From assembly GCF_003025005.1 (NCBI RefSeq), contig NZ_PVSS01000016.1, forward strand, positions 1 through 64,000: a DNA stretch of 64,000 bases, in the 5' to 3' direction. The notes beneath the pieces were generated by a model. It saw only the letters and a program-made list of their open reading frames with translations. It was not told the DNA's origin and did no database searches. Made by a program: the position numbers and the translations under genes. The number at the start of each line of letters is the position of its first letter. Within the stretch, counting starts at the first letter, position 1. Source of the stretch: Brumimicrobium mesophilum (GTDB lineage Bacteria; Bacteroidota; Bacteroidia; Flavobacteriales_D; Crocinitomicaceae). Below, in pieces: positions 15,968 to 44,080 of this stretch.

Positions 15968-16086
15968 TTTTTTGTTTTTTCTTTAATTCTACTAATTTCT
16001 TCTTTTTTTCTTGAATCATTGAACAAAAGAGAATTAACCTTTTGTTATTTTTTATTCAAGTTTTTCACCTCTAGATGTTTCTAATT

Positions 16087-16758: not shown

Positions 16759-16768
16759 TTTTTTTATT

Positions 16769-17336: not shown

Positions 17337-17348
17337 GGTTTTTAATTT

Positions 17349-17508: not shown

Positions 17509-17511
17509 TCT

Positions 17512-18723
17512 CTACATTTTTTGGTCTAAACTCTTTCCTGTTTCGATATGCTCAAAATCAGGTAGGTATTGTTTTAGTAAATCAACAATTGCAGTTTTAT
17601 CATAATTTCCTGAATCCATTAAATGTTTTAATTCTAAAGTCGTTTTATTAATTTCTTCTTTAGGAAGTTTTCGTGCATTTTTAATTACACCTAGACTTGA
17701 GAAAGTTTCTTGATCTACTACATCTGTATCGGTGAAGAATTCTTCATATAATTTCTCTCCAGAAGTATCTGTATCGAAAAAATATACTGGATATGGATCT
17801 CCATCTTTAGTTGTTTGCGCTAATTTTTTTGCTTCAACTTCAGATTCACATTCAATGATAGGACGATTTGAAGCTTTAAAGAAATCAACGGTAATCTTCT
17901 TGAAGAATGCCATTTCTTCTTCAGCTAATTTAGGGAAGAAAATTTCACCTGAATTACCTAACATACACGCCAACATACAAATTTGACCACTTTCTTCTGG
18001 TGAAACAAAGAATCTTTTAACATCAGAAGGGCAGGAGATAGGTTGGTTTTGGAATAATCTTTCAATATAACCGGCCAATAACGATCCATTAGAAAAAGCA
18101 ACATTTGCAAAACGAGCTGTTGTAATTTGTAACTCATTACTATAAGCCATAATTACCTCTTCCATCAATTTCTTACTTGCTCCCATAACGTTAACTGGGT
18201 TAGCAGCTTTGTCTGTAGAAACACAAAAGAAATGTTCCGGTTTTTTGCTTACCAATAAATCTAAAAACTCTTTCGCTTTGAAAACATTATTGTCAATCAT
18301 CGCTTCAATAGAATACTTATCTTTTTCGCTACGTACATGTTTGTGAGCAGCGAAATTAGCTACAATATGAAATGGACCTTCTGCAAGAAACATTTTCTTA
18401 AAAACAGGGTCACCAAAATTCATAGGATAAGTTCTGAAATCTTCTGGAACAAACATATTTGCATCAGAACGCAATGTTCTTGTCAATTCAGTTAGACCAT
18501 TTTCATTGGTATCTACAACAAATAATTTCCCAGGTTTAAACTTTAAAATAGCTTTTATGTAAGAAGACCCTATCGTTCCTGCACCACCAATTACAAGAAC
18601 TGATTTACCTTCAATCTTTTTACTTAAAAGGTCTTTATTGGCTTCGATGTCATTTTTAAATAGACTTTCATGTCTTTTGGTAATGTGAGTGTTGATAAAG
18701 TTGGGTATGTCTATAATATTCAT
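17512..18723 (-). CDS. FlaA1/CapD-type nucleotide-sugar 4,6-dehydratase/epimerase
   Basis: 403 residues of the Polysacc_synt_2 family of short-chain dehydrogenases. Visible: Rossmann motif GGAGTIGSSY (~46-55), NFAAHKHVRSEK (~135), the active-site STDKAANPVNVMGASK segment (~195-210) where Met replaces Tyr as in FlaA1/PglF-type inverting or retaining dehydratases, and a C-terminal extension with D-x-D-T-S-G-E-K-L-Y-E-E. The likely reaction is UDP-GlcNAc to UDP-2-acetamido-2,6-dideoxy-4-keto-hexose, feeding an aminotransferase (LegC-type at 36216) and PglD at 19007. Longer than soluble FlaA1 (~330) and without the membrane domain of PglF/WbpM. The precise product stereochemistry cannot be read from the sequence. 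Confidence 0.82.
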   Translation of the reverse strand: MNIIDIPNFINTHITKRHESLFKNDIEANKDLLSKKIEGKSVLVIGGAGTIGSSYIKAILKFKPGKLFVVDTNENGLTELTRTLRSDANMFVPEDFRTYPMNFGDPVFKKMFLAEGPFHIVANFAAHKHVRSEKDKYSIEAMIDNNVFKAKEFLDLLVSKKPEHFFCVSTDKAANPVNVMGASKKLMEEVIMAYSNELQITTARFANVAFSNGSLLAGYIERLFQNQPISCPSDVKRFFVSPEESGQICMLACMLGNSGEIFFPKLAEEEMAFFKKITVDFFKASNRPIIECESEVEAKKLAQTTKDGDPYPVYFFDTDTSGEKLYEEFFTDTDVVDQETFSSLGVIKNARKLPKEEINKTTLELKHLMDSGNYDKTAIVDLLKQYLPDFEHIETGKSLDQKM

Positions 18724-18788
18724 GTTAATTTATTTATATTCAGTGAAATGGGTTTTAATATGGCGGTTATGTATGTCTCAAAAGTAGT

Positions 18789-18999: not shown

Positions 19000-19006
19000 C
19001 GATGTG

Positions 19007-19642
19007 TTATGCGTATTGTCTTTTTTCTAATTTTTTAGCTGGATTTCCAACAATTGTATAGTTGTCTGGTATATCCTCTAGTACCACTGCGCCAGCACCT
19101 ACTATTACATCATTTCCAATAGTTACCCCTTGTTTAATAACCGCAGCAGCACCAATAAAGCTTCTTTCACCAATCGTTACGTTTCCAGATAAAACTGCTC
19201 CTGGTGCAATATGAGCAAATGCTTTTACCACAGATTCGTGTTCTATGATTGCTCCAGAATTAATAATGCATCCTGTTTCTATTACAGCCAATGCATTTAC
19301 AACAGCTCTAGCTGAAATCAATGTATTTGTTCCAATAGTCGCTGATTTAGACACAATAGCCCTTGGATGAATTAAAGAAGTGAAGGCATTTTCTTTTTTA
19401 GCAGAAATAATGTTGAAGACTTTTTCCCGTGTATGATTGTTACCAATGCTACAGAAGAGTGCCGCATTATATTTTTCAAATTCTTCCTCTTTTCCAAGAT
19501 AATCCAAATCATACGGGTTTCTTTTCACCTTTTCTAAATCAAAATATCCTAAGATATCATAAACCATCTGAAAGGCAGTTTCAATGCATACATAGGCATG
19601 ACCAGAATATCCAATGAAGGCAATTTTGTTTTGTGAATTCAT
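19007..19642 (-). CDS. PglD/NeuD-type sugar N/O-acyltransferase
   Basis: 211 residues: an N-terminal Rossmann-like PglD_N domain (IAFIGYSGHAYV, ~8-19) that binds the UDP-sugar, then a left-handed beta-helix of hexapeptides. The motif N-S-G-A-I-I-E-H-E-S (~135) with catalytic His-Glu is the PglD signature, followed by HIAPGAVLSGNVTIG. PglD acetylates the 4-amino group of UDP-4-amino-4,6-dideoxy-GlcNAc. The adjacent 4,6-dehydratase and the PglC-type transferase 2-3 kb downstream fit a diNAc-bacillosamine-like (QuiNAc4NAc) pathway; only the aminotransferase is distant. The 283-base gap to the dehydratase is full of repeats. Confidence 0.87.
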   Translation of the reverse strand: MNSQNKIAFIGYSGHAYVCIETAFQMVYDILGYFDLEKVKRNPYDLDYLGKEEEFEKYNAALFCSIGNNHTREKVFNIISAKKENAFTSLIHPRAIVSKSATIGTNTLISARAVVNALAVIETGCIINSGAIIEHESVVKAFAHIAPGAVLSGNVTIGERSFIGAAAVIKQGVTIGNDVIVGAGAVVLEDIPDNYTIVGNPAKKLEKRQYA

Positions 19643-31793: not shown

Positions 31794-32231
31794 TTAAATT
31801 ATACTTTTGGACATTAATTGAATTTGGTTTTTGCAATCAATATTTACAAAATTATTTTTTTTATAAAATTTTATTGCGTTTAAATTTCTACTGGAAACTT
31901 CTAATTTTATCTGATGAATACTAGTATATGTGCTACATAGAAAAAACAACTTGTCTAATAATTTCTGTGCAACACCTTGTTTTTGTGAAATAGGGCTGAC
32001 GCTAATTGTTGTAATAAATGAAAAGTTACAACTGTCGTTTATGTAAAATGCTAATAAACCACTTAATATATTTTCGTGAAAATATTCTATTCTATAAGCA
32101 TGTTCAAAAATCTTTTTTGAATATGCCTTAATATTTACTCTTTCATCTAAATTAGGAATGAAGTGTTGGTTCATTTTGGTTAAATACTCAATGATATCTT
32201 CTTCTGTGGTTGTATCAAGCTTAATCATCAC
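31794..32231 (-). CDS. GNAT N-acetyltransferase
   Basis: 145 residues, one GNAT domain. Motif A reads SPISQKQGVAQKLLDKLF (~78-95) with the Q-K-Q-G-V-A pyrophosphate loop; the C-terminal N-L-N-A-I-K-F-Y-K-K-N-N-F motif (~118) is the usual GNAT motif B. In this setting, next to a VioA-type aminotransferase, it could N-acetylate a dTDP-4-amino-4,6-dideoxyhexose as WecD does, but it could equally be a RimI-like enzyme. It is 292 bases from its upstream neighbour and about 0.6 kb from the orphan terminator downstream. Confidence 0.75.
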   Translation of the reverse strand: MMIKLDTTTEEDIIEYLTKMNQHFIPNLDERVNIKAYSKKIFEHAYRIEYFHENILSGLLAFYINDSCNFSFITTISVSPISQKQGVAQKLLDKLFFLCSTYTSIHQIKLEVSSRNLNAIKFYKKNNFVNIDCKNQIQLMSKSII

Positions 32232-32523
32232 TTTTCTATACTTACATTAATATTCATTTCGCCTTTAATACTAATAAATGAGAATCGGTTAAGACCAAGT
32301 ATCTTGTGAAATTTTCTCAAACAAAGTCAGTTTTTTAATTTCTCAAACTTTTTCATTAATCAATCATAATAGAATTTAAGCATTCTTTGTATGAATTGCG
32401 TTTTACAAGTATTACTATTTTTTTAATTATTTATATGAGTTGGTGAAATTTTATATTTACAGCTTTTAAGTACTATTTTTATATAATTGTATTCCTACAA
32501 TGATTAAAACAATACTAGTTGGA

Positions 32524-33000
32524 TTATTTTTTCTTGAAAAATTTAGCTGGACTACCTAACCAAATTTCATTAAATGGAATATTTTTATTAACAAAAGCCA
32601 TACTTCCAGTTACGGAATTATCACCAATTGTTATTCCATGATGAAGAACTGAATTTGTACCGATAAAACAATTTTTTCCAATCTTTGCACCACCAATTGA
32701 TTCTTTACCTGAGTCTAGATTATTTGTCATAACTCTTGGACAAACATATGTGTTGTCACCAATTTCGCAACCTCTGGCAATTATTGTATCATAGCGTAAG
32801 GTAACGTTATCTCCTATCTTACATTCTCCAGAAGTAGAAACTCTAGAATCGATATAACAGTTTTTACCAATGATGGTGTTCTTACGTAATTCAACATAGT
32901 TTTTAATAACTGTTCCATCTCCAATTTCAACTCCGTCTTCAATTACGATGTAATTTCCAATTTCAACGTTTTTTCCAATTTTTGCGTACTTTGATATCAT
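32524..33000 (-). CDS. Hexapeptide-repeat acyltransferase, short
   Basis: 158 residues, almost wholly left-handed beta-helix: I-G-K-N-V-E, I-G-N-Y-I-V, I-G-D-G-T-V, I-G-K-N-C-Y and so on, with V-L-H-H-G-I-T-I-G-D (~122) providing a conserved His and the end EIWLGSPAKF. The length and pattern are like WbpD/FdtC/DapH-type N-acetyltransferases that modify nucleotide amino sugars. It starts 5 bases after the NeuD-type gene, in a tight row with an ATP-grasp and a DegT aminotransferase, which supports N-acylation of the amino sugar made by that aminotransferase. Confidence 0.82.
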   Translation of the reverse strand: MISKYAKIGKNVEIGNYIVIEDGVEIGDGTVIKNYVELRKNTIIGKNCYIDSRVSTSGECKIGDNVTLRYDTIIARGCEIGDNTYVCPRVMTNNLDSGKESIGGAKIGKNCFIGTNSVLHHGITIGDNSVTGSMAFVNKNIPFNEIWLGSPAKFFKKK

Positions 33001-33005
33001 ATTAT

Positions 33006-33680
33006 TTATTTAATGTTACTTTTTGCTGAAGCTGGGCTTCCTACTATTATTTTATTTGACTCTTTAATATCTTTAACAAGGTTAGCCCCTAATCCAACTA
33101 AACTATTTTCAGCAATAGAAATGTTATTTTTAACGGCAGATTTTTGCCCTAAAAATATATTTTTTTCCATATTAACTGAGCTTCCTATGCAAACATGTGT
33201 TGCAGTAAAAACATGGTTCTTGATTACAGTGTCGTGTCCAATTGTCGTTTGGGCTAAAAATGTACAATGGTTACCAATTGATACATTCGAATGAATAGCG
33301 CAATTTACAAAAATAACATTACCAAAACCCATGTTAACACTTTTAGAAATAAAAGCGGAAGGGTGAATGAAGTTACCCCATTTCTCTGTTGGAATATTAT
33401 AACTTTTTATAAGAGCCTCTCTTTCAGGCATCTTTAAAGGGTTGTTCATTTGAAATATAAATTTCACATCTTTATATTTTTTATATTTTTCATACAAAGA
33501 ATTAGTTTTGCATAATATAGGAAAGCCATTTATTTCATCCCCAAAATCTTCGTCATCGAAAGCAAAACCTAAGAATTCTACTTTAGCGTTATGGTTATTT
33601 TGTGCATCCCAAATTCCTTCGGCAATATTGACTGCAGTTCCTTTACCTCCAATAATTATGTATTTAGTTCCTTCAATCAT
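33006..33680 (-). CDS. NeuD/PglD-like acyltransferase
   Basis: 224 residues. N-terminal Rossmann-like domain with YIIIGGKGTAVNIAEGI (~7-23), then a beta-helix with A-Q-T-T-I-G-H-D (~148) that holds the catalytic His, and the usual end IIVGSPAS. Here the N-terminal domain looks longer and the I-E-H-E motif of true PglD is replaced by T-I-G-H-D, as in NeuD-like branches. Gap of 16 bases to the ATP-grasp gene. Possible donor: acetyl-CoA; possible acceptor: the 4-amino-sugar of the VioA-type enzyme at 34899. Confidence 0.8.
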   Translation of the reverse strand: MIEGTKYIIIGGKGTAVNIAEGIWDAQNNHNAKVEFLGFAFDDEDFGDEINGFPILCKTNSLYEKYKKYKDVKFIFQMNNPLKMPEREALIKSYNIPTEKWGNFIHPSAFISKSVNMGFGNVIFVNCAIHSNVSIGNHCTFLAQTTIGHDTVIKNHVFTATHVCIGSSVNMEKNIFLGQKSAVKNNISIAENSLVGLGANLVKDIKESNKIIVGSPASAKSNIK

Positions 33681-33696
33681 TTTTTTACCTTTGTAA

Positions 33697-34896
33697 TTAT
33701 TCTAAAATAACCTTAATAAATTTTGTGTAATTTGACATTACTTTCTCCAATTCCTTCCTTGTTTTAAACTTTAACACCAATGTGCCTATTGCTTCATTAG
33801 CACCAGTAAATGCATTAACTTTATCTCCTTCTTTTATCCAAAGGTCCACTTCTTGAATGTTATTTTTAAGGGAATTATCAATACTTAATTCTTTGAAAAC
33901 TCCTATTTGATAACTATAGAGTATAATTTCAGCCCAATTTCCATTATAAATTGGGTGATTCACATCGATGATTTCTTCTCCCAAAGCCGCCTTTATAGAA
34001 AGTGATATAAGATCAGTTCCTGTAGACATTTTTAAAACTTCAGAAAGTCTGTTACCTCCACCTCTTGGGGATACTTCCATTATATATTGTTTTCCATTTG
34101 TGGCTTCTCTAACTTCAATATTATAGATGGAAGATTTCATGTTTAATAGGCTAATTAATCTTTGAAGTTCTAATTTTAAAAATGATTGACTTTCTTCAGC
34201 CATAGAAGAAGGCCAACTATATGCAGCGGGTGTATAAGGATTTGGTGAATTGGAATCAAACCGCTGATTAGAGAATGAGACATAACATAAATCACCGTTA
34301 ATAGAAAAACAATCGGAGTCTGAAGAGAAGCTTTTTCCTTCTAAAAAGTCTTCAATAATAAATGTTTTTGTAGGTGAAAAAGAGAGTGCATTTTCAATTG
34401 CATCTATTAATTCATCCTGATTTTCCACTTTCTTGACACCTTTACTTCCTGCGGAATCTACTGGCTTTACAATTACTGGAAATTCAAAATAATCAAGGTT
34501 ATTAATTGCATCTTTGGCATTTGTATAAGTTTGAGATTTAGGAACGTTAAAGTTATGATTTTCTAAAAACCGTCTAAACAAACCTTTGTTTTGAAGGATT
34601 TTTATTGATTCATACGGGCCAGCAGAAGGTAAATTGTATTTTTCGGAAACGTATGCAGCAGTTGTTACTCCAGGATCAACGGCAAAAGACATAATTCCAT
34701 CTATTTTTAACTTTTGAGCCAAATGTAAAATAGCATCTTTATCTAGAATGCTAATATTATGGAACTCATCAGAATGAGAATGAGCAATGTTTTCAGGCAA
34801 GTTATCACAAGTGATTACATGAATTCCCATTTTTTGCGCTGATTTTATTACTGGAATAAGATATCTTAATCCTCCAAGTAACAATAGTTTTTTCAT
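33697..34896 (-). CDS. ATP-grasp ligase
   Basis: 399 residues. N-terminal pre-ATP-grasp domain (LLLGGLRYLIPVI), ATP-grasp core with VIVKPVDSAGSKGV (~143-156; Lys of the flexible loop), F-I-I-E-D-F-L-E-G-K-S-F-S (~194) and the metal-binding E-V-S-P-R-G-G-G-N-R (~267), then a C-terminal ~90-residue domain. The family makes carboxylate-amine (amide) bonds with ATP. Placed 2 bases after an aminotransferase and 16 before acyltransferases, it may couple an amino acid or hydroxy acid to the new amino group of the sugar. Substrates are not predictable from the sequence. Confidence 0.87.
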   Translation of the reverse strand: MKKLLLLGGLRYLIPVIKSAQKMGIHVITCDNLPENIAHSHSDEFHNISILDKDAILHLAQKLKIDGIMSFAVDPGVTTAAYVSEKYNLPSAGPYESIKILQNKGLFRRFLENHNFNVPKSQTYTNAKDAINNLDYFEFPVIVKPVDSAGSKGVKKVENQDELIDAIENALSFSPTKTFIIEDFLEGKSFSSDSDCFSINGDLCYVSFSNQRFDSNSPNPYTPAAYSWPSSMAEESQSFLKLELQRLISLLNMKSSIYNIEVREATNGKQYIMEVSPRGGGNRLSEVLKMSTGTDLISLSIKAALGEEIIDVNHPIYNGNWAEIILYSYQIGVFKELSIDNSLKNNIQEVDLWIKEGDKVNAFTGANEAIGTLVLKFKTRKELEKVMSNYTKFIKVILE

Positions 34897-34898
34897 AA

Positions 34899-35981
34899 TT
34901 AATTATTTTGGATTCTTAATATTAATCTACTTATTAATCCAACTTCCTCGAAAGTAAGGTCATAGAAAAGGGGGAGACATAAAACTCTTTTTGAAATGTC
35001 ATCTGTAATCGGCATTCCAATGGACTTAGTATACGGTAGTACATTTGATAGAGCTGGATAAAAATATCTTCGCGTAAATATATCTTGTTTTTCTAGATTT
35101 TCTTTAATTTTTAACATTAAAGTTTCACTTTCAAATACAATAGGATAATAGGCATAATTTAAATTCGCACCATTTTGCCATTTAGGTTTAAATGCTTTAA
35201 CGTTTTCTAATTTTTCATCATATAATTCTGTAAGTTCTCTTCTTTTTTTATGGATGGATTTTATATATTTCATATTAGCTAATCCCATAGCGGCATGGAA
35301 TTCAGAGTTTTTACCATTAATTCCTAATTCGGCAAAAGACTCTGTTCCTGAAAAACCAAAATTCCTCATAAAGGCAATTTTTTTCAAAAGTTCAGGATCT
35401 TTTGTGATAATTAGTCCTCCTTCGGTTGAGTGATACAATTTTGTTGCATGCAAACTACAAATACTAATATCTCCATATTCAAATATTGATTTTCCATGAA
35501 CCTGCACTCCAAAAGCATGAGCACCATCGTAAATCACTTTTAAATTATGTTTTGCAGCAATTTTTTCAATTTCTAAAACATCACAAGGATTCCCATAAAC
35601 ATGGGTTGCTAGAATTGCTGTTGTTCTATCAGTAATTGCAGCTTCTATTTTAGAAGCATCAATATTTAAAGAGTTTTCATCTATATCAACGAAAACTGGT
35701 GTGCAACCTTCCCAAACAATACTGCTAGTAGTAGCAACAAATGAAAAAGGAGTTGTGATAATTTCATCTTTTAATTCTAAAGCCTTAATTGCTATCTGCA
35801 AAGCTATGGTTCCATTTGTAACAAATAATAAGTGTTTTAGATTTAAATGATCTTTTAATTTCATTTCCAAATCGGAGGCTAACGGCCCCATGTTTGTCAA
35901 CCATTGACGTTGCCAAACTCCCTGGAGGTATTCGTTATAATCTTCGAGAGGTGGAAGAAAGGGTTTGGTTATGGGTATCAT
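34899..35981 (-). CDS. DegT/DnrJ/EryC1/StrS aminotransferase, VioA-like, copy 1
   Basis: 360 residues, PLP-dependent. The opening MIPITKPFLPPLEDY and QRQWLTNMGPLA match VioA-type dTDP-4-keto-6-deoxyglucose 4-aminotransferases. Other motifs: TNGTIALQ (~55), DGAHAFG (~152) and the Schiff-base Lys181 in S-L-H-A-T-K-L-Y-H-S-T-E-G-G. It would make dTDP-4-amino-4,6-dideoxyhexose from the RmlA/RmlB product. The gene at 57773 is a full-length paralog, same length and start. It heads a five-gene accessory block between two terminator repeats. The exact product epimer is not readable. Confidence 0.87.
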   Translation of the reverse strand: MIPITKPFLPPLEDYNEYLQGVWQRQWLTNMGPLASDLEMKLKDHLNLKHLLFVTNGTIALQIAIKALELKDEIITTPFSFVATTSSIVWEGCTPVFVDIDENSLNIDASKIEAAITDRTTAILATHVYGNPCDVLEIEKIAAKHNLKVIYDGAHAFGVQVHGKSIFEYGDISICSLHATKLYHSTEGGLIITKDPELLKKIAFMRNFGFSGTESFAELGINGKNSEFHAAMGLANMKYIKSIHKKRRELTELYDEKLENVKAFKPKWQNGANLNYAYYPIVFESETLMLKIKENLEKQDIFTRRYFYPALSNVLPYTKSIGMPITDDISKRVLCLPLFYDLTFEEVGLISRLILRIQNN

Positions 35982-36103: not shown

Positions 36104-36221
36104 TTTTAAACAAAAAAAAATGGTTAGAAATATAGTTTTTACCTTCTATATTTTTAACCACTTTATTTAAACGGAATTTTGATTCTGTTATTTATACATT
36201 GGAAATGTCAGTAAATTAATT
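36104..36221. repeat. 117-bp repeat, copy B (at LegC-type gene end)
   Basis: About 88% identical to 31145-31261. It overlaps the last two codons (Asn, stop) of the aminotransferase at 36216 and extends 112 bases past it. The second small hairpin (AACGGAA/TTCTGTT) has a G-T wobble where copy A has a perfect pair, so the structure is conserved while the sequence drifted. Confidence 0.9.
36112..36160 (-). terminator. Intrinsic terminator after LegC-type aminotransferase
   Basis: On the minus strand, arms 36160-36146 and 36135-36121 (TGGTTAAAAATATAG / CTATATTTCTAACCA) form a 15-base stem with one G-T wobble and a 10-base loop, followed by nine T (36120-36112). It ends the transcript of the 63.9-36.2 kb half-locus. 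Confidence 0.85.
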
Positions 36222-37364
36222 CCTAAAGAATTCTTTAATCGTTTCTACAACAGTTTCCAATTGTTCTCTTGTGATTCCAGCAGAGCTAGGAATACTTATA
36301 CTATTCTCATAAACTGTTGAAGAAACATCTTTTTCATTAAAGTAGATATCATCCTTAAACATCGCCAATTGGTTCATAGGCATCCAAAATGGTCTTGATT
36401 GAACTCCGTTTTTATTTAGATATTCTAATAAATCACGCATGCGAGAAGTACTAAACGTAAATAGCCAACAGTTCGGATTTGTTCCTTCTGGAATTGCTTG
36501 GAATTTGATATCTCCAATACCTTCTAATTGTTCGCGGTAGAATGCATCCATTGCTTTCTTCGCTTCTAAAGTTTCATCGAAAGTTTCCATTTGCGCAACT
36601 CCAATTGCCGCCAATACATTTACCAAGCGATAATTGTAACCAATTTCGTCGTGGATGTAATCCATCGCACTCACTTTTGCTTGGGTTGTAAGGTGACGTG
36701 CTTGTTTAGCGATTTCTTCATCATTTGTAACAATCACACCACCTCCACCTGTGGAGATGATTTTATTCCCATTAAAACTGAAAACTCCGATTTCCCCAAA
36801 ACTTCCTGAGTGTTTTCCATTATAAGTACTTCCTAATGCTTCAGTACTGTCTTCGATAATAGCTAAATGGTGTTTTTCGGCTATCTCTAGCATTCTATTC
36901 ATATCACCAATATTACCAAGAACATGAACTGGCATTATAGCGCGAACTCTATTACCTGTAGACTTGTCAAAACTAAACGTACCATTATTGGAAGTTTTAA
37001 TTTCTGTGTTTTCTTGAAGATATTTCTCCAATAAGTTGAGGTCCATTTGCCAATTATCAGCGTCCACATCAATTAGAATCGGTTGCGCTCCAGTATATTT
37101 TATTGCATTCAGGGTTGCAATAAATGTAATGTTTGGTGCTATTACATGGTCATTTTCATTTACTCCTAGAAGTATTTGTGCGATGTGAAGTCCTACTGTA
37201 CCATTCATGCAAGCCACACCATATTTGGCACCTGCATAATTAGCCACCATTTCTTCGAATTGGTTAACATAACTACCAGCTGAAGAAATCCAACCAGTTT
37301 GTAAACAATCAAGGACGTATTTCGATTCGTTTCCTTCGATTTTTGGAATTGATAATGGGATCAT
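36216..37364 (-). CDS. LegC-type nucleotide-sugar aminotransferase
   Basis: 382 residues of the DegT/StrS fold, different subgroup from the two VioA-like genes. Start MIPLSIPKIEGNE, NGTVGLH (~54), E-D-S-T-E-A-L-G (~171) and Schiff-base Lys201 in F-S-F-N-G-N-K-I-I-S-T-G-G-G-G. The opening and Lys context match LegC/PglE-like transaminases that put an amino group on C4 of UDP-2-acetamido-2,6-dideoxy-4-ketohexose. It could thus follow the FlaA1-type dehydratase (17512) and precede a PglD-type acyltransferase (19007 or 39422). It ends in a terminator with a duplicated 3' flank. Confidence 0.87.
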   Translation of the reverse strand: MIPLSIPKIEGNESKYVLDCLQTGWISSAGSYVNQFEEMVANYAGAKYGVACMNGTVGLHIAQILLGVNENDHVIAPNITFIATLNAIKYTGAQPILIDVDADNWQMDLNLLEKYLQENTEIKTSNNGTFSFDKSTGNRVRAIMPVHVLGNIGDMNRMLEIAEKHHLAIIEDSTEALGSTYNGKHSGSFGEIGVFSFNGNKIISTGGGGVIVTNDEEIAKQARHLTTQAKVSAMDYIHDEIGYNYRLVNVLAAIGVAQMETFDETLEAKKAMDAFYREQLEGIGDIKFQAIPEGTNPNCWLFTFSTSRMRDLLEYLNKNGVQSRPFWMPMNQLAMFKDDIYFNEKDVSSTVYENSISIPSSAGITREQLETVVETIKEFFRN

Positions 37365-37505: not shown

Positions 37506-38252
37506 TTACTTTTTGAATATTTTATAATACCATTTCTTGAGTACGGTTATATGATAGGCATTCATTAATTCTATGGAGTTTGAAGAAGGAAATGAAATTC
37601 TGTTTCTTTGACCATCTTTATATAGATAGTCTGCTGGGGCAGCAATAACATCTAATCCTTTATCCTTAAAAATTTCAATTGCTCTTGGCATATGAAGGGC
37701 ACTAGTAACAAGGATTATTTTTTTATTTGTTCCAAAAGTGTCTTTAAAGGCGTTCGCTTCTTCAAGGGTTGTTGTTGGCGTTTCTAACATTTTTACCTGC
37801 TTCTCATTTACGCCAAGCGAGATGGCAGCTTCTTTACTAAGCCTAGCTAAACTCTTGTCTCCTTCAGCTGAGTATGCCGAAGTTACTAAAATTGAATTAT
37901 TTAAATGTGTATAAACTCTTATTCCCTCAATTAATCGTTTTAAAGCTTCTGAACTAATATTCATTGTAGAGGGAAGCCTAGGATCTGTTGTGGAACCTGC
38001 TCCTAATACAAGTATATGATATACTTGTGAAGAATCAAGTTCACTAAATTCTATAGGGTTGTACTTGCTTTCAATGGAATTAATCAATATTTTGGGTAAG
38101 TAAGTTGTAGAAGAAAGTAAGAATAAAACTATACCAGTTATAAGATATGCTTTAAAATATTTAAATGGTTTTTTTCGGTACCATAATGCTATTGAACCCC
38201 AAGTTAGGAAATATAAACTTACGTCTGGAATACCCTTTAAAAAGTCAATCAC
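37506..38252 (-). CDS. YdcF/ElyC family protein (DUF218)
   Basis: 248 residues. Two N-terminal transmembrane helices (about 10-25 and 33-52) and a DUF218 domain from ~75: VLGAGSTTDPR, NSILVTSAYSAEGD, TPTTTLEEANAF and LVTSALHMPRAIEIF. These T-x-x-T-x-E-N/A and S-x-x-H-x-x-R-A patterns are diagnostic. ElyC and SanA, family members in E. coli, affect the use of undecaprenyl carrier and envelope integrity, which fits a polysaccharide locus that draws on the same carrier. Placed 11 bases after the initiating transferase. Reaction unknown. Confidence 0.85.
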   Translation of the reverse strand: MIDFLKGIPDVSLYFLTWGSIALWYRKKPFKYFKAYLITGIVLFLLSSTTYLPKILINSIESKYNPIEFSELDSSQVYHILVLGAGSTTDPRLPSTMNISSEALKRLIEGIRVYTHLNNSILVTSAYSAEGDKSLARLSKEAAISLGVNEKQVKMLETPTTTLEEANAFKDTFGTNKKIILVTSALHMPRAIEIFKDKGLDVIAAPADYLYKDGQRNRISFPSSNSIELMNAYHITVLKKWYYKIFKK

Positions 38253-38263
38253 TTGTTTTGATT

Positions 38264-38989
38264 TTATAATTTACTCACTCCTGAAACGGTCAAAGATGCT
38301 GGTTTTTTAGGTAAGTTTTTCAAGCTTCTAAAAACCAATTGAGAATCTTTATTTACGAGAGACCAAAAGGTCAAAAATAGAATTTTAAAATCTACTGTTA
38401 TTGAGCAATTTTTATAATACCACTGCTCTAAAGCTCCTTTATAAGGGAAAATATACTTTCTGTAATATTCTTTCGGGTCTTTTCCTAAATCTCTGTATTT
38501 CGTAACCAGTAATTCTTCATCTCTAAAAATCAGTGAACCAATGCCAGTAATTCCAGGTCTGTTTTTATAAATTATAGATTGAACTTCTGGAGTATAATTT
38601 TGAAAACTTCTCAGTAATAAAGGTCTGGGTCCAACCAATGCCATATCACCTTTAATTACATTAAGAATTTGTGGTAATTCGTTGATTTTAGTCATTCTTA
38701 AAAACTTACCCACTTTGGTTATTCTGGGATCATTTCTAACTGTTAGGGTTTTGTTTCCAATGTTTGCACTGTCTTTTAACATCGTAGCAAACTTGTATAT
38801 GAAAAAAGGCTTATTTTTGCGACCTAAACGTTCTTGTAAATAGAAAACCTCGCCTTCTCCATTAAATTTAAGAAGGACAATAATAACTAAAAATAAAGGT
38901 GAGATAACCAATAACCCTAATAAAGAGACTATGAAATCAAAAGATCTTTTGATGAAAGAATAGAAAATTGAATTCTTTTTGTTACTCAT
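38264..38989 (-). CDS. Initiating sugar-phosphate transferase (PglC type), copy 2
   Basis: 241 residues, paralog of 16087. Re-entrant N-terminal helix (about 16-36), KFATMLKDS, DPRITKVGKFLRMTKINELPQI, VGPRPL, RPGITG, with the same YYRKYIFPYKG region near the end as copy 1 has FYSQKIYPFKG. Short PglC form without the WcaJ membrane domain. It lies downstream of the acyl assembly line (KAS/ACP/KR/AcpS), so a likely substrate is a UDP-amino-sugar carrying that acyl chain. Such a choice would make the acylated sugar the first residue of one of the two polymers; this is inference. Confidence 0.88.
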   Translation of the reverse strand: MSNKKNSIFYSFIKRSFDFIVSLLGLLVISPLFLVIIVLLKFNGEGEVFYLQERLGRKNKPFFIYKFATMLKDSANIGNKTLTVRNDPRITKVGKFLRMTKINELPQILNVIKGDMALVGPRPLLLRSFQNYTPEVQSIIYKNRPGITGIGSLIFRDEELLVTKYRDLGKDPKEYYRKYIFPYKGALEQWYYKNCSITVDFKILFLTFWSLVNKDSQLVFRSLKNLPKKPASLTVSGVSKL

Positions 38990-39030: not shown

Positions 39031-39372
39031 CTAAATTAACACAATCGCAACAGCTGTGGCATAATCTTTAGCATGAGAAATACTTATTTTTATTGATTCA
39101 CAATTTATACTTTCACTTTTAAAGTTCGCATAAGGAGCACCTGATGATTTATGCGCGATTGTTATATCCTTAATAAAAATCTCTTCAATTGAGAATGTTG
39201 CCTTAACTACTGCTTCCTTAGCACACCAAATACCAGTTAGAGTTTGAGATGGGTTGGCTTTGGAAATTGCATATTCCCACTCAGATGAATTGAACATTTT
39301 TTGAAGTAGTCTGTTTTTATGATCAAATAATTTTTTGAATCTTGATATATGTTCTATGTCGATGCCTATCAT
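39031..39372 (-). CDS. acpS: Holo-ACP synthase-type phosphopantetheinyl transferase
   Basis: 113 residues. M-I-G-I-D-I-E-H-I at the start holds the metal-binding Asp; W-C-A-K-E-A-V-V-K-A (~49) the catalytic Glu and Lys; and I-S-I-S-H-A-K-D-Y-A (~96) the conserved Ser-His. The length is that of AcpS trimer subunits. A locus-specific copy beside the ACP gene (42765) means this ACP probably has its own activating enzyme. Neighbours are the PglD-like gene upstream and the PglC-type gene downstream. Confidence 0.9.
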   Translation of the reverse strand: MIGIDIEHISRFKKLFDHKNRLLQKMFNSSEWEYAISKANPSQTLTGIWCAKEAVVKATFSIEEIFIKDITIAHKSSGAPYANFKSESINCESIKISISHAKDYATAVAIVLI

Positions 39373-39421
39373 ATATGTATTGAATAGTTCATATTATAAA
39401 AACGCTCTATCTATATTAAAA

Positions 39422-40054
39422 TTAGAACTCAACAACCTTGGCAGGTGATCCAAAAACCGTTGTGTTTTTTTTAACTTTTCTGATAATTAGACTTCCCATT
39501 CCAATTGTTGAGGAATCTTCAGCAATTGCCCCTTGAATAAATTTGGAGTGAGCACCAACTAAAACCATTTCTTTAACTTCAGATTTTCCAGCAAAAAAGG
39601 AAAAAGAGTTGATTTGAGAGTATTTACCAATTCTAACATCGTGCCCCATAATTACAGAGCTTTGTATAAATGCGTAGTCCTCAATAATTGCATCACTAGC
39701 TATTACACAATAGGCCTTAATACCAATACCAGTTCCCAACTTAACACTTGGAGAAATTACAGTATTTGGATGGATTAGATTGATAAATTCGCCTCCTTTT
39801 TCAAGAATCATTTTAACGCATTTCTTTCTTATTTTGACGTTGCCAATACCACAGAAAAATACATCTCCTTTTTCTATTTTATAATCAGTTATCGTATTAA
39901 TTATTGGAGCATAACCATCAAATTCAATCTTATCTTCTTTTTCGCTTATGAATCCTTTTAAATTAAAATCTTCATCATTACCGTAGCAATATTTAGCTAA
40001 ATCGTAAATTTCTCTAGCAAAGGCACCACCACCTAATATTATCAAATTTCTCAT
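39422..40054 (-). CDS. PglD/NeuD-type acyltransferase of the acyl assembly line
   Basis: 210 residues. N-terminal LIILGGGAFAREIYDLA (Rossmann-like, nucleotide-sugar binding), then hexapeptide turns with the V-I-M-G-H-D-V-R-I-G motif (~133) holding the catalytic His, and IIRKVKKNTTVFGSPAKVV at the end. Because it stands between two ketoreductases and AcpS, its acyl donor may be the acyl-ACP of this cluster rather than acetyl-CoA; the acceptor would be a UDP-4-amino sugar. That is inference from neighbours; the fold is clear. Confidence 0.82.
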   Translation of the reverse strand: MRNLIILGGGAFAREIYDLAKYCYGNDEDFNLKGFISEKEDKIEFDGYAPIINTITDYKIEKGDVFFCGIGNVKIRKKCVKMILEKGGEFINLIHPNTVISPSVKLGTGIGIKAYCVIASDAIIEDYAFIQSSVIMGHDVRIGKYSQINSFSFFAGKSEVKEMVLVGAHSKFIQGAIAEDSSTIGMGSLIIRKVKKNTTVFGSPAKVVEF

Positions 40055-40115
40055 CGTATTATTTGAAACTAATTTTGTTTTTTCTAATCAAGCCCCATTT
40101 TTGGCTTGAATTAAA

Positions 40116-40865
40116 TTACTTAATAGAGTATCCTCCGTCAATAGTTAATAAACTACCTGTTGTCCAAGTGGAAGCATCTGACATTAAATATATTACTCCG
40201 TTTGCTATGTCTTCTGGTTTACCAAATCTACCCATTGGATAATTATTTAGATGCTCCTTTATAGAATCTTGATCTATTCCACTATTCTCTAAAATACTTG
40301 TTTGAATAAAACCGGGAAGGATTGCATTCACACGTATTTGTTTTGAAGACAATTCCAAAGCTAAAGACTTAGTGAATGAATTTACTGCTCCTTTTGAAGC
40401 AGAATATAATGAATTACCAAGGTTAACATAGTTTGAAGCTACTGAGGAAATAAAACAAATTGAAGCTCCTTTTTTTATCTTTTTTTTACGAAGTAATTTC
40501 TGAATTAGAACTACCGAAGAAGTAAAATTAACGTCAAAAACCTCTTGAATTTGTTCTTTTTTAATGAATGCTACGGGTACAGTTTTTACAATACCAGCAT
40601 TTAAAACAATTCCATCCAATAGTGGTAATCTATCTACAAGCTTTTCAATATCTTCATTACTTTTTAGATCTGCAACTATGAACTGATTATTAGAATTTGT
40701 TTTAAGATCATTAAAAGTATCTTCTAATCTTTGACTGTTTCGTCCAGTAATTATCATATTAGCATCCATATTTGAACAACTAAAAGCTATTTCTTTTCCA
40801 ATTCCAGCAGACGAACCAGTCACAAAAATGGATTTATCTTTAAGTGTAAAAGGATTTATACTCAT
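40116..40865 (-). CDS. FabG-like ketoreductase (SDR), copy 1
   Basis: 249 residues, classical SDR. TGSSAGIG (16-23) for NADP binding, L-N-A-G (~88), Ser141, Tyr154 and Lys158 (Y-S-A-S-K) as the catalytic set, then P-G-F-I-Q-T and the usual G-S-L-L-T-I-D-G-G-Y end. FabG-like enzymes reduce 3-oxoacyl-ACP to 3-hydroxyacyl-ACP. It lies among two KAS III genes, an ACP and AcpS. Gap of 34 bases to the second SDR. Confidence 0.88.
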   Translation of the reverse strand: MSINPFTLKDKSIFVTGSSAGIGKEIAFSCSNMDANMIITGRNSQRLEDTFNDLKTNSNNQFIVADLKSNEDIEKLVDRLPLLDGIVLNAGIVKTVPVAFIKKEQIQEVFDVNFTSSVVLIQKLLRKKKIKKGASICFISSVASNYVNLGNSLYSASKGAVNSFTKSLALELSSKQIRVNAILPGFIQTSILENSGIDQDSIKEHLNNYPMGRFGKPEDIANGVIYLMSDASTWTTGSLLTIDGGYSIK

Positions 40866-40899
40866 TAAAATAGTCGTTTAATTTTATTTATAGATAATT

Positions 40900-41679
40900 C
40901 TATCTGGAAGTATAACCTCCATCAATAATATAGTTTTGGCCAGTTATCCATTTGGATGAATCTGACAATAGGAAAATACAAAGATTCGAAACGTCTTTAG
41001 GTTCTCCTAACCCCAAAGGAAAACCTTCCTGTCTTTTTAATTTCTCCTCATCATTTAGTGAATCAAGATATTTTACCATCATTGGAGTTAAGATAGTACC
41101 TGGAGAAATACAATTTACTGTAATGTTTTTTGGAGCCAGTTCAAGAGCCATAGATTTGGCACCAGCTAATAAAGCTCCTTTAGACGCAGCATAACTTACA
41201 ACTCCTGGTCTACCTATAACAGCTGTAATTGAGGAAATAAATACAAAACTACTGTGGTCTGCGACATTTTTCTTTTTAGAAACAATTTTGGCTAATTCAA
41301 ATCCGCTGATGACATTTAGTTTGTACATATCAGCATAATCAGACTCTTTTAATGCTCTAATAGGTAGGGTTTTCTCAATACCAGCAGCATGAACTAACCC
41401 GTTAATTTTACCAACTTTTTGAACAGCATCACTAATTATACTTGATAATTGATCTATATTATCTAATAAATCAAGACTATACTTTAGATGTTTATCCCTT
41501 GTGTTTTCCTTTGAATGTTTGTTTAATTCATCATAAACTTCCGAAAGCCTGTCGTTGTTTCTACCAAGAATTATAAGTGTAGCACCCATCTTGGCACATT
41601 CTATTGCACAATCTCTTCCTAAACCAGAAGACGCTCCTGTGATAACTATGTTTTTATTGATTAGGTTAAATCTGTCCAT
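40900..41679 (-). CDS. FabG-like ketoreductase (SDR), copy 2
   Basis: 259 residues, classical SDR. TGASSGLG (14-21), H-A-A-G (~97), Ser150, Tyr163 and Lys167 (Y-A-A-S-K), and the end G-Q-N-Y-I-I-D-G-G-Y. It is clearly diverged from copy 1 and so may act on a different chain length (for example one reduces a 4-carbon, the other a 6-carbon 3-oxoacyl-ACP). The start codon directly abuts the stop of the KAS III gene (0-base gap). The presence of two ketoreductases but no dehydratase or enoyl reductase predicts a product with hydroxyls kept. Confidence 0.88.
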   Translation of the reverse strand: MDRFNLINKNIVITGASSGLGRDCAIECAKMGATLIILGRNNDRLSEVYDELNKHSKENTRDKHLKYSLDLLDNIDQLSSIISDAVQKVGKINGLVHAAGIEKTLPIRALKESDYADMYKLNVISGFELAKIVSKKKNVADHSSFVFISSITAVIGRPGVVSYAASKGALLAGAKSMALELAPKNITVNCISPGTILTPMMVKYLDSLNDEEKLKRQEGFPLGLGEPKDVSNLCIFLLSDSSKWITGQNYIIDGGYTSR

Positions 41680-42738
41680 CTATATTTCTATTAAGTTAGA
41701 ACATACGATTTTATCTGTTTCAAAGTAAACTGAAGCCCAAGAAAGGCCACTACCAAAACCACAAGCAATTAAATTCAACTTCTTTTCAGAGAGTTGAGTT
41801 CTAATTTTATGAACCATAGTTAAAGGAATGGATGCACATGAAGTGTTTCCAAAGCTTTCATATGAAGTAGGAACTCTATCTTCTTCGAATTTTACTTTTT
41901 TACTCACTTTATCTACAATCATTTTATTGGCTTGATGCAGAATTAGATAGTCGATATTTTCATTTTCTAATCCATTTTCCTTCATTAATTTTGCTATACT
42001 TTTTGGTATAGCAGAAATAGTAAAGGTAAATACTGCTGCTCCGTCCATTATGTATTGCAATTTATTTCTTACAATTCCCTCATCAATTTTTATTGTCTCT
42101 AAAGATTGAAGATTTGTTGGATTTCTAAAACCTCCATCAGGTATATGAATAGCTTCAAATTTAGATCCATCAGTTCCTGAATGAATCTTAAAGCCAACAC
42201 CTCCTTGATCGAATTCAATTGCTGTTGCTGAACCTGCATCTCCGAAAAGTGGATAAGTAGATCTGTCCGTTTTTGATTTCGTTTTAGTTGTTGTTTCACC
42301 TACCAGCAATAGTGCTTTCTTGAAATTACCAGTTGAAACTAGGGAACCCATTATTGATAATCCATAAGTCCAAGCAGAACAACCTAGAGAGATGTCAAAA
42401 GCATGACATTCTTTAGACAAACCTAACCTGTGTTGTAATACACATGATGTGGCCGGAACGACATAATCAGGTGTTTGGGTAATAAATATTAAACAATCTA
42501 TTTCCTCTTTATTCCAATTTAAATTAGCAATTAAATCTTCGGCAGCGTGGAAACAAAGGTCAGCACTTGTGATTTCACTTGATGATACTCTTTTTTCAAT
42601 TATTCCAGTACTTTTTATGAATTTTTCTGCATCTTCTCTATTCGTAAAGGCTATAGATTCAATATTTTTTTCAATATTCTTAGGCACACATGCCGTGATA
42701 CCAGAAATTTTAACGTTTGGAATTGTTTGAAAAGCCAT
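41680..42738 (-). CDS. 3-oxoacyl-ACP synthase III (KAS III), copy A
   Basis: 352 residues of the FabH family. All three catalytic residues are in place: Cys120 (S-L-G-C-S-A-W), His268 (L-H-Q-A-N-K) and Asn298 (F-G-N-T-S). Start MAFQTIPNVKISGI is nearly the same as the second copy (MAFQHFKNIKIQGF), so the two are true paralogs. KAS III condenses an acyl-CoA (or acyl-ACP) with malonyl-ACP. It lies 26 bases after the ACP gene. Confidence 0.9.
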   Translation of the reverse strand: MAFQTIPNVKISGITACVPKNIEKNIESIAFTNREDAEKFIKSTGIIEKRVSSSEITSADLCFHAAEDLIANLNWNKEEIDCLIFITQTPDYVVPATSCVLQHRLGLSKECHAFDISLGCSAWTYGLSIMGSLVSTGNFKKALLLVGETTTKTKSKTDRSTYPLFGDAGSATAIEFDQGGVGFKIHSGTDGSKFEAIHIPDGGFRNPTNLQSLETIKIDEGIVRNKLQYIMDGAAVFTFTISAIPKSIAKLMKENGLENENIDYLILHQANKMIVDKVSKKVKFEEDRVPTSYESFGNTSCASIPLTMVHKIRTQLSEKKLNLIACGFGSGLSWASVYFETDKIVCSNLIEI

Positions 42739-42764
42739 AACTGCTTGTATTTAATTTTTGAAAA

Positions 42765-42995
42765 TTACTTAGATAAACGTGCTTTTACTTCATCTAATAG
42801 TTCACCAACTGTCTCGATCTTTTTGAATTCATCAGTATCAATGATAATTTCATATTCTTCGTCTAGCATGGCAATTGTTGATAAAAAAGCTAAAGAATCC
42901 CACTCTTCATATTCTCTAAACTTATCGCTTAAGTTCATTTCTTGCTCTTCCTTTTCTAATACTTCCTTGAATAATTCAATAAATTTTGATTCCAT
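42765..42995 (-). CDS. Acyl carrier protein
   Basis: The open frame extends to 43043 but this would overlap the upstream KAS III stop; ATG 42995 gives 76 residues, the standard ACP length (M-E-S-K-F-I-E-L). The phosphopantetheine site is W-D-S-L-A-F with Ser34. Very acidic, helical. It differs from housekeeping AcpP (the residues around D-S-L are E-E-W-D-S-L-A-F rather than G-A-D-S-L-D), which points to a dedicated ACP for the local KAS/KR enzymes. Confidence 0.9.
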   Translation of the reverse strand: MESKFIELFKEVLEKEEQEMNLSDKFREYEEWDSLAFLSTIAMLDEEYEIIIDTDEFKKIETVGELLDEVKARLSK

Positions 42996-43018
42996 ATTTT
43001 TGTTTTTATGTTGTTGTT

Positions 43019-44080
43019 TTAAATCATAATCACTTTCGGGCACACTATGTCAGTGGTTTCAAAATAAATTGAACCCCATGATAGTCCTACACCAAAAGCG
43101 CATGTCATTATCTTTAATTTTTCATTTTTGACTTGTTCAGATAACCTTGATACAATTGTTAAAGGTATTGATGAACAAGATGTATTTCCATACTCGTTTA
43201 ATGAATAAGGAACTTTTTCGCTAGGAATTTTAAGTTTTCTTACAATTTTTTCCAGCATAAATTTATTCGCTTGGTGAAATACAAACTGGTCAACTTCATC
43301 CAAGTTAATATTATATTCCTTCGCTAAACCCATTACACTTCTAGGAGCTTTGGTAATTCCAAAAGTAAAAACTGCAGCGCCATCCATAAATGTTTGAAGT
43401 CTGTTTCTTTTATTACCATCTTCATCTACAGAGTAGGTTTCAGAATCTTTAGAATAAAAATTTCTAAAACCGCCATCTGGAATAATTATGGCTTCATGGC
43501 CTTTTCCATCCGTAGAAGTATGCACCTTAATTCCATCGGCTCCATTAACATATTCAATGGCTGTGGCAGTACCTGCATCTCCAAATAAAGGATACGAACT
43601 TTTATCGTAAGGAGACTTAGTCATCGTTGAAGTATCTCCAACTAATAAAATCCCTTTTTTAAAACCACCATTTTGAATTAATCCAGCAATGGTTGCCATT
43701 CCATGAATCCATCCTGAACATCCCAATGAGATATCAAGTGTGAAACAATCATTTGAAAGGCCTAATTTATTTTGTAATATGCATGATGTTGCTGGGAAAA
43801 TATAATCTCCTGTTTGAGAGACAAATATAAGACAGTCAATTTCTGATTTATCCCAATTTAATTCTTCAATTAACTTTTCAGCGGAAGCCAGGCACATATC
43901 AGAAGTTCTAATGGAAGTTCCAGTTACAGTATGACGTTGCTTTATTCCAGTCGATTTTATAAAATTCTTAATTTGATCAGGATTACCTAAAAGTTCAAGA
44001 TTTTCATTAGACTCTATGTTTTTAGGTACACAGGCTGCAAAACCTTGTATTTTTATATTTTTGAAGTGTTGAAAGGCCAT
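43019..44080 (-). CDS. 3-oxoacyl-ACP synthase III (KAS III), copy B
   Basis: 353 residues with intact Cys121 (G-C-S-G-W), His269 (H-Q-A-N-K) and Asn299 (Y-G-N-T-S). First gene of the acyl assembly unit (43019-39031). A TACTTTTG at 44105-44098, 17 bases before the ATG, matches the TAnnTTTG box, though no TTG sits at the best -33 distance. Two KAS III enzymes in one unit suggest two successive condensations, with this one perhaps the priming step. Gap of 23 bases to the ACP gene. Confidence 0.9.
   Translation of the reverse strand: MAFQHFKNIKIQGFAACVPKNIESNENLELLGNPDQIKNFIKSTGIKQRHTVTGTSIRTSDMCLASAEKLIEELNWDKSEIDCLIFVSQTGDYIFPATSCILQNKLGLSNDCFTLDISLGCSGWIHGMATIAGLIQNGGFKKGILLVGDTSTMTKSPYDKSSYPLFGDAGTATAIEYVNGADGIKVHTSTDGKGHEAIIIPDGGFRNFYSKDSETYSVDEDGNKRNRLQTFMDGAAVFTFGITKAPRSVMGLAKEYNINLDEVDQFVFHQANKFMLEKIVRKLKIPSEKVPYSLNEYGNTSCSSIPLTIVSRLSEQVKNEKLKIMTCAFGVGLSWGSIYFETTDIVCPKVIMI

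Follow-up and report, generated by a model that had tools for sequence, protein, structure and literature searches.

A run of seven minus-strand genes (44080 to 39031, coordinates and strand as in the preliminary description) in a 64,000-nucleotide stretch of the Brumimicrobium mesophilum genome, hereafter the window, appears to encode a minimal type II assembly line, complete in itself, that makes a short hydroxyacyl cap; judging from the genes present, we hold with moderate confidence that this cap would be a 3,5-dihydroxyhexanoyl group on a 4-amino sugar. The idea of a two-cycle acyl-cap pathway is not new, as it has been in print since 2019, when such a route was proposed for the 3,5-dihydroxyhexanoyl group of Flavobacterium psychrophilum (Cisar et al. 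2019, PMC6519341), and the window holds a self-contained variant of it.

Gene content and catalytic motifs

The families of all seven genes (Table 1, KAS1 to AcpS) were confirmed by Pfam and NCBIfam profiles. The gaps between them, of 0–61 nt, fit a single operon; here, the ACP was counted from an ATG at 42995 picked by inspection (the listed GTG at 43043 would overlap KAS1). In the window, a flippase and glycosyltransferases surround the cassette, and a single DUF218 gene separates the LegC-family aminotransferase from the PglC-like transferase.

Table 1. Cassette genes and associated amino-sugar genes in the window.
Feature	Position	Strand	Description
KAS1	43019..44080	-	beta-ketoacyl-ACP synthase III, clade B; ACP_syn_III; tree sister is a Chlorobiaceae cassette KAS, 59% identical
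ACP	42765..42995	-	76 aa from ATG; PP-binding; DSL attachment motif
KAS2	41680..42738	-	beta-ketoacyl-ACP synthase III, clade B; ACP_syn_III; 52% identical to KAS1; without clear tree sister
KR2	40900..41679	-	SDR ketoreductase; adh_short/FabG-like
KR1	40116..40865	-	SDR ketoreductase; adh_short/FabG-like; 35% identical to KR2
PglD/NeuD/VioB-type hexapeptide sugar N-acyltransferase	39422..40054	-	PglD_N and Hexapep
AcpS-type phosphopantetheinyl transferase	39031..39372	-	113 aa; ACPS; in operon
PglC/WcaJ-type undecaprenyl-phosphate sugar-phosphate transferase	38264..38989	-	next gene after AcpS
LegC-family aminotransferase	36216..37364	-	family profile above cut-off
UDP-GlcNAc 4,6-dehydratase, FlaA1-type, 3pvz-like	17512..18723	-	~20 kb from cassette

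The inventory of the preliminary description, with two catalytically intact KAS III, one ACP, two intact ketoreductases (KRs), a PglD-type acyltransferase and AcpS, was borne out by profiles and motifs. Both KAS hold the Cys-His-Asn triad (Cys121/His269/Asn299 in KAS1 numbering), present in 208/208 aligned KAS; this set takes in both window KAS, and a few of its proteins occur twice (those of L187, which repeats L035, and two pairs each shared by L028/L099 and L031/L097). At the positions of the CoA-binding FabH residues Trp32 and Arg36, KAS1 has N and S and KAS2 has K and S; thus, neither holds the pair typical of a housekeeping, acetyl-CoA-type FabH, whose W and R are found in the genome's own FabH. 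Trp32 was kept in 0/208 aligned KAS, 8 of them gapped at that position, and its absence across cassette KAS would agree with a donor that is not CoA bound in the conventional way. The translations of both KR1 and KR2 contain TGxxxGx(I/L)G-like and YxxxK sequences, the motifs of SDR enzymes.

The PglD-type enzyme showed the PglD_N and hexapeptide domains and the catalytic His of the PglD/NeuD/VioB N-acyltransferases; its TIGR03570 score (155.3 bits) lies slightly below the 160.8 cut-off, and its GHD His aligns with the position where 4ea7 has H and where 4eaa and 4eab, two otherwise near-identical solved sequences, have N or A. The AcpS is a short, single-domain protein of the ACPS fold (PF01648, 69.9 bits, residues 2–109 of 113), slightly below the cut-off of the TIGR00516 equivalog (57.5 vs 59.8 bits), and the aminotransferase scored 454 bits against a LegC family cut-off of 420. 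As previously described, no FabA/FabZ-type dehydratase is encoded in the run, the genome's only two PF07977 matches being located on other contigs.

Related cassettes in known systems and other genomes

The 3,5-dihydroxyhexanamido group of the F. psychrophilum O-antigen, mentioned in the preliminary description, is indeed chemically established; it sits on Qui2NAc4N, and the R1-group genes of this O-polysaccharide are wfpC/wfpD/wfpE/wfpF/wfpG (PMC6519341). The polysaccharide of Vibrio cholerae O3 is likewise reported to bear a 3,5-dihydroxyhexanoyl group (PMC3210612). For F. psychrophilum, the proposed route relies on a pair of ketoacyl-ACP synthases with a single ACP, a PglD homologue and one ketoreductase that is named (PMC6519341). 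This core (two KAS III, one ACP, at least one KR and a PglD-type acyltransferase in one cluster) was found in the window, and, going by the published description, both systems have a dedicated ACP, a PglC homologue, an aminotransferase and a 4,6-dehydratase, of which the PglC-like and LegC genes lie close to the cassette in the window. In contrast to the one KR, and no PPTase, named in the published Discussion for F. psychrophilum, the window has two KRs plus AcpS, and its dehydratase is distant from the cassette, whereas pglF lies in the same cluster in F. psychrophilum.

A shorter version is found in the viosamine island of Pseudomonas syringae, with one KAS (vioS), acp, vioR and vioB, where a 3-hydroxybutyryl group is attached and a vioR mutant loses the modified sugar (PMC3927599). 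These genes, together with the P. aeruginosa PAK orfB–orfE homologues, resemble the window in combining KAS III, ACP, KR and a VioB/PglD-type acyltransferase, and the type of outcome, a 4-amino sugar carrying an amide-linked hydroxyacyl group, would be shared. In contrast to the window, P. syringae employs one KAS, one KR and one cycle to place 3-hydroxybutyryl on dTDP-viosamine, destined for flagellin. As the one-KAS system gives 3-hydroxybutyryl and the two-KAS system of F. psychrophilum a C6 dihydroxyacyl group, the number of cycles is probably determined by how many KAS there are.

The comparison set consisted of 100 loci. Counts were made on 90 complete clusters, after 15 of 105 running within 1.5 kb of the locus end were dropped; L187, on the same contig as L035, was left out, and the counts may hold other duplicate loci. 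PglD-linked KAS cassettes were found in several phyla, the complete ones with one KAS in 15/40 cases and two in 25/40. All but one of these 25 two-KAS clusters showed one KR above the counting threshold of 200 bits. In the whole set, second KRs below this threshold were those of L089 (199), L076 (191), L056 (181) and L190 (131). The opposite combination, two strong KRs with one KAS, was seen in L105, and two KAS with two KRs in L039, which has no PglD. One KR being the norm with two KAS, the earlier argument that two KAS plus two KRs amount to two condensations plus two reductions was abandoned as evidence for two cycles once the 90 complete clusters had been counted. Another part of that proposal, a dedicated, ACP-bound short acyl group handed to a PglD-type N-acyltransferase acting on a 4-amino sugar, is supported by what has been described in F. 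psychrophilum and P. syringae and by the recurrence of such cassettes with PglC, PglD and LegC all linked (13/90 complete KAS clusters).

Regarding KAS clades, complete two-KAS clusters (n = 49) paired A+B in 34 cases, B+B in 14 and A+A in one. Cassettes with a single KAS, one KR and PglD belonged to both clades (10 complete clusters for B and 4 for A), so chain initiation seems to be within reach of both; the idea that clade B alone does so, derived from a B-biased query, was dropped when cassettes with KAS-A as their only KAS turned up in a search with a clade-A query. The preliminary description had suggested looking for the same gene order in other Bacteroidota, and the Flavobacterium loci L063 and L081 did contain the same gene set (PglC, PglD, two KAS, ACP, KR, LegC and a PF02719 dehydratase), but with one KR and an A+B pair of KAS. 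In a sister type of cassette, without PglD, the gene immediately after the KR is a GT2 gene; this arrangement was seen in 18/80 named loci, and PglD was labelled in none of them. As this GT2 gene was matched in 20/29 loci from the window's own family (L005–L033, ~4 kb each), these relatives were not counted as support. A scan of viral_contigs gave one match, of 30%.

Compared with these cassettes, that of the window stands out by four features: its same-clade KAS pair, its two KRs of different lineages, its in-operon AcpS and the kinship of KAS1. Both KAS belong to clade B, in place of the A+B pair of the two Flavobacterium loci. KAS1 is the sister of Chlorobiaceae KAS (SH-aLRT 99), its nearest kin, and no close KAS was found in nine same-genus genomes; KAS2 falls within the same 26-row fork, and with this topology a recent tandem duplication of KAS1 and KAS2 was discarded. 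The Chlorobiaceae loci L035, L188 and L189, from a single genus, show the row PglC, PglD, KAS-B, ACP, KAS-B, KR, as in the window, with a first KAS 59–60% identical to KAS1 and, in L035, a second KAS from another B subclade; unlike the window, they have one KR, and their PF01648 matches are on other contigs. KR1 is closest to KRs of cassettes holding a clade-B KAS (49% identity to L038) and KR2 to those of mixed cassettes, L087 and L192/L193, the latter with a single KAS-A (50% to L192), although one KR is usual in such cassettes. In addition, a cassette PPTase seems less exclusive to the window than initially considered, as Sfp-like, longer PPTases were detected in L089 (PF01648, 22.1 bits, cut-off 25), L085 (61.6 bits) and L200 (on the opposite strand, matched by phmmer only).

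Predicted acyl group and acceptor sugar

From this gene content we infer starter, cycle number, product, acceptor and order of action as follows. AcpS would convert the dedicated ACP into holo-ACP, and one KAS III would join a short starter, most likely acetyl-CoA, to malonyl-ACP, the product being reduced by a KR to 3-hydroxybutyryl-ACP. The other KAS III would extend it once more, and reduction by a KR would yield 3,5-dihydroxyhexanoyl-ACP, with no dehydratase and no apparent enoyl reductase in the run for further processing. The 4,6-dehydratase and the LegC-family enzyme, the likely source of the 4-amino group, would make UDP-2-acetamido-4-amino-2,4,6-trideoxyhexose, to whose 4-amino group the PglD-type enzyme would move the acyl chain; then, the PglC-like enzyme would begin a repeat unit by loading this sugar onto undecaprenyl phosphate. 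Against this scheme, acyl-CoA is the normal substrate of KAS III enzymes, while an acyl-ACP would be required in the second cycle, and the B+B pair of KAS departs from the A+B pair of L063 and L081.

As one KR suffices in nearly all two-KAS PglD-linked cassettes, the second KR of the window may do something else. Two cycles could end in another acyl group, if the starter were not acetyl, if a keto group escaped reduction or if the second KR set a different stereochemistry at C3 or C5, which we regard as rather unlikely. The different lineages of the KRs and two clade-B KAS that are not tree sisters would fit such a product, as would the Rieske oxygenases (L052, L063) and AMP-binding enzyme (L043) of related cassettes, where the acyl group probably varies; however, the window operon has no such extra gene, and acetyl-CoA is the simplest starter.

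Regarding the acceptor, the existence of the FlaA1-type dehydratase was confirmed, and over its full length it matches 3pvz (UDP-GlcNAc 4,6-dehydratase) over residues 16–403 of 403, but it does not adjoin the cassette and is accompanied by another PglC-like gene and another NeuD-type gene. It is possibly common to a second amino-sugar module; the amino sugar may then serve both or receive an acetyl group in place of the longer acyl chain. Of the other enzymes of the legionaminic acid pathway, LegB had no strong match (151 bits vs 475) and a LegI/NeuB-type synthase no match among the scanned ORFs, a part of the total. RmlA, RmlB and a DesI-like aminotransferase are encoded at 57.8–62.4 kb, another DesI-like enzyme lies at 34.9 kb, and these two aminotransferases, which count against our preferred scheme, offer alternative acceptors. 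A dTDP-4-amino-4,6-dideoxyhexose in place of UDP-Qui2NAc4N, as with the dTDP-viosamine of P. syringae (PMC3927599), nevertheless seems unlikely, since LegC and the PglC-like transferase adjoin the cassette and LegC with PglC accompanies related ones.

It is also improbable that the KAS act in parallel, one cycle each, with different starters or one of them redundant, giving 3-hydroxybutyryl or a 3-hydroxyacyl mix as on the P. syringae flagellin sugar. Single-KAS cassettes of both clades are consistent with this, and according to a review no such group is more abundant in the surface glycans of bacteria than the 3-hydroxybutanoic acids. However, two intact, divergent KAS have been retained on either side of the ACP, most complete PglD-linked clusters have two KAS, and the two-KAS precedent bears a C6 group (PMC6519341). 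Finally, a small secondary-metabolite or lipid cluster placed by chance in a polysaccharide locus, for which the sister cassette without PglD could speak, is highly improbable given the PglD inside the operon, the PglC-like and LegC genes just after it and the nearby flippase and glycosyltransferases.

Implications for surface glycans

Genes for glycan acyl groups influence O-antigenicity in the fish pathogen F. psychrophilum (PMC6519341), and a related group decorates the flagellin of the plant pathogen P. syringae; in the published accounts of both, the chemistry of chain building is a prediction from gene content and not the outcome of reconstitution. The comparison of loci yields a simple, testable rule, that KAS number equals cycle number. 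More tentatively, and with doubt, KAS III count may set acyl length across phyla (one for a C4 hydroxyacyl, two for a C6 dihydroxyacyl group), the window being a fully self-contained case in which same-clade KAS III would alternate, one accepting acyl-ACP, the two KRs would fix one stereocentre apiece and the ACP would be activated by an AcpS acquired from elsewhere. Being compact and self-contained, the operon is a good candidate for reconstitution, and it could reveal a KAS III performing an elongation step.

The cassette and its sugar modules

Analysis of the minus strand from 44080 to 39031 revealed a run of seven genes in the order KAS1, ACP, KAS2, KR2, KR1 (KAS, KAS III enzymes; KR, SDR ketoreductases), PglD-type acyltransferase and AcpS, with intergenic gaps of 0 to 61 nt when the ATG at 42995, chosen by inspection, is taken as the ACP start. 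The cassette observation is thereby confirmed, as the genes, order and families listed in the preliminary description proved correct for both this run and the dehydratase. Glycosyltransferases, a flippase, an MBOAT acyltransferase, RmlA and RmlB lie in the neighbourhood, and the region is a surface-polysaccharide locus. The two FabA/FabZ-family matches of the genome are both outside the window's contig.

KAS1 and KAS2 are 52% identical, and Cys, His and Asn are kept in 208 of 208 aligned KAS, these two included. KR1 and KR2, 35% identical, each carry a nucleotide-binding motif and YxxxK. The PglD-type enzyme combines PglD_N and hexapeptide domains, its GHD His aligning with a position at which two out of three solved, almost identical perosamine N-acetyltransferase sequences differ. 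Of the CoA-binding positions of FabH, Trp32 is missing, and Arg36 nearly always missing, in both main clades (A and B) of the KAS tree: Trp32 is kept in none of the 208 sequences (gap in 8) and Arg36 in three (gap in 5). This would fit, short of proof, a donor other than conventionally bound CoA, such as acyl-ACP.

The FlaA1-type dehydratase invoked earlier is present and matches 3pvz over its whole length, but it lies 20 kb from the cassette, beside a second PglC-like gene and a NeuD-type acetyltransferase gene, and may serve two modules. No aminotransferase was found among the ORFs scanned near its own module, which may share the amino sugar of LegC. A stronger PF02719 match, in a 634-aa frame on contig C34 of the same genome, could likewise provide the keto sugar. 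In addition, a second amide-sugar-like module could acylate a 4-amino sugar with an amino acid or another acid.

Features of the window and of related loci (L043, L052, L063, L089)
Locus	Position	Feature	Remarks
Window	14873-19642	WecB-type epimerase, PglC-like, UDP-GlcNAc 4,6-dehydratase and NeuD-type acetyltransferase module	
Window	16087-16758	Second PglC-like gene	
Window	17512-18723	4,6-Dehydratase	
Window	19007-19642	NeuD-type acetyltransferase	
Window	31794-35981	Second amide-sugar-like module	DesI-like aminotransferase, ATP-grasp protein, PglD-like and hexapeptide acyltransferases, GNAT
Window	36216-37364	LegC-family aminotransferase	After DUF218/ElyC-like gene; domain profiles
Window	37506-38252	ElyC/DUF218-like gene	Between PglC-like gene and LegC
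Window	38264-38989	PglC/WcaJ-type transferase	After seven-gene run; domain profiles
L043	8600-9994	AMP-binding enzyme	Within related cassette
L052	11799-12881	Rieske oxygenase	Within related cassette
L063	8681-9766	Rieske oxygenase	Within related cassette
L089	19-13610	Independent self-contained locus, Clostridia MAG	PF02719-like dehydratase, LegC, PglD, KAS-A, KAS-B, ACP, Sfp-like PPTase, PglC; one KR apparently split across two frames, plus a second KR

Precedents and survey of related cassettes

For F. psychrophilum, Cisar et al. 2019 (PMC6519341) had already put forward the pathway proposed for the window: from the ACP WfpD, two 3-ketoacyl-ACP synthases (WfpC, WfpE) and the reductase WfpF they suggest that 3,5-dihydroxyhexanoyl is made by a type II fatty-acid-like route, and the PglD homologue WfpG is predicted to transfer the acyl group onto UDP-D-Qui2NAc4NH2. 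No later test of this hypothesis appeared among the matches listed in open-licence literature searched by acyl group, gene names and gene combination, and a passage search of Rochat et al. 2017 (PMC5601056) returned no acyl terms. Passages of two reviews (PMC10609480, PMC3210612) give the F. psychrophilum acyl as (3S,5S)-3,5-dihydroxyhexanoyl and that of V. cholerae O3 as 3,5-dihydroxyhexanoyl, its configuration not assigned there. A one-cycle version predates this two-cycle proposal: the P. syringae viosamine island, with vioS (KAS III), acp, vioR (KR) and vioB, is tied in the passages concerned to N-(3-hydroxybutyryl) viosamine, and the modified sugar is missing in a vioR mutant (PMC3927599).

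The scan of named genomes gave at least 80 loci, the best 80 being a top slice biased to KAS resembling the query. To lessen this bias, a clade-A query and KAS1 were run against 395 genomes of the phylum, with matches in 34 (at 1e-50) and 35 genomes, respectively, own genome included in each; 20 larger regions were taken from these searches. A quick-method tree with SH-aLRT support only (179 proteins, 175 different) placed 53 in clade A and 124 in clade B, leaving outside the genome's own FabH and a distant KAS-like protein of contig C1. Profile searches on 100 loci (the best 80 named, 19 of the regions and the window) detected 105 KAS clusters, 90 of them complete, with PglD, PglC and LegC all linked in 13 of the 90. 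The 49 complete two-KAS clusters comprised 34 A+B, 14 B+B and one A+A.

Other cassette types were also observed. A sister cassette, with one or two KAS, ACP, KR and a GT2 glycosyltransferase directly after KR, was found in 18 of the 80 best named loci (L040 to L099); 15 of the 18 had a matching GNAT, which may be its acyl transferase, and none a PglD label. Of the 29 loci from the window's own family, 20 likewise held a GT2 match (L006-L033 in part). The Rieske oxygenases and AMP-binding enzyme in the Table suggest that in these related cassettes the acyl group is tailored or loaded in additional ways.

KAS number and cycle number

Among the 40 PglD-linked complete clusters, 14 had one KAS and one KR, one had one KAS and no KR, 24 had two KAS and one KR, and only the window had two of each, KR being counted above 200 bits (a lower cut-off would add a second KR to L089, L076, L056 and L190). 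Locus L039, which lacks PglD, likewise combines two KAS with two KRs above 200 bits. Cassettes with a single KAS agree with the C4 hydroxyacyl sugar already known, and those with two agree with the known C6 dihydroxyacyl sugar. Judging from one published case of each type, the count of KAS III genes in a cassette thus probably determines how many condensations take place; that of KRs does not. Single-KAS cassettes occur in both clades, so that neither clade can be assigned the role of starter or extender. The earlier reading, in which two KAS and two KRs yield 3,5-dihydroxyhexanoyl-ACP for transfer to a 4-amino sugar, is partly supported: a dedicated ACP-bound short-acyl route to a PglD-type enzyme agrees with the published precedents, whereas the pairing of two reductions with two KRs is not borne out, 24 of 25 PglD-linked two-KAS clusters having a single KR. 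The product, starter and acceptor in the window are what we infer from sequence.

A new variant and its possible acquisition

The window cassette is a variant not seen before of the published type. Both its KAS fall in clade B. In the tree, KAS1 groups with the leading KAS of a Chlorobiaceae cassette (59% identity, SH-aLRT 99). KAS2 lacks an obvious partner, its best identity being 53% to a Bacteroidales KAS (L036). The KRs occupy different parts of a FastTree phylogeny, KR1 nearest to KRs from cassettes containing clade-B KAS and KR2 in a supported 29-row set without KR1, nearest to L087, L192 and L193.

The AcpS gene lies inside the operon and is the only short one of three genome matches to PF01648, the PPTase/AcpS profile; those in nine of nine same-genus genomes were all weaker (at most 45 bits), in longer frames (182-262 aa). 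A phmmer search with the window AcpS (1e-4) gave no AcpS label in the best 80 named loci. Longer-type PPTases were present in cassettes L089 (Clostridia MAG) and L085 (Atribacteria MAG); L200 has one as well, encoded on the opposite strand. Bringing an own PPTase thus looks convergent.

KAS1 matched 49 of 72,556 plasmid records at 1e-30, 19 of them Azospirillum and none with at least 60% identity; such cassettes may thus move. Among the matches listed, H1 and H2 were Parabacteroides distasonis records and H3-H19 mostly Azospirillum, at 31-49%. The GC content of the window cassette (0.32) does not differ from that of the rest of the window (0.29-0.33) and lends acquisition no compositional support. 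The AcpS gene inside the operon, together with the absence of KAS matches at 1e-75 from all nine same-genus genomes, suggests that the cassette was acquired along with its own activating enzyme.
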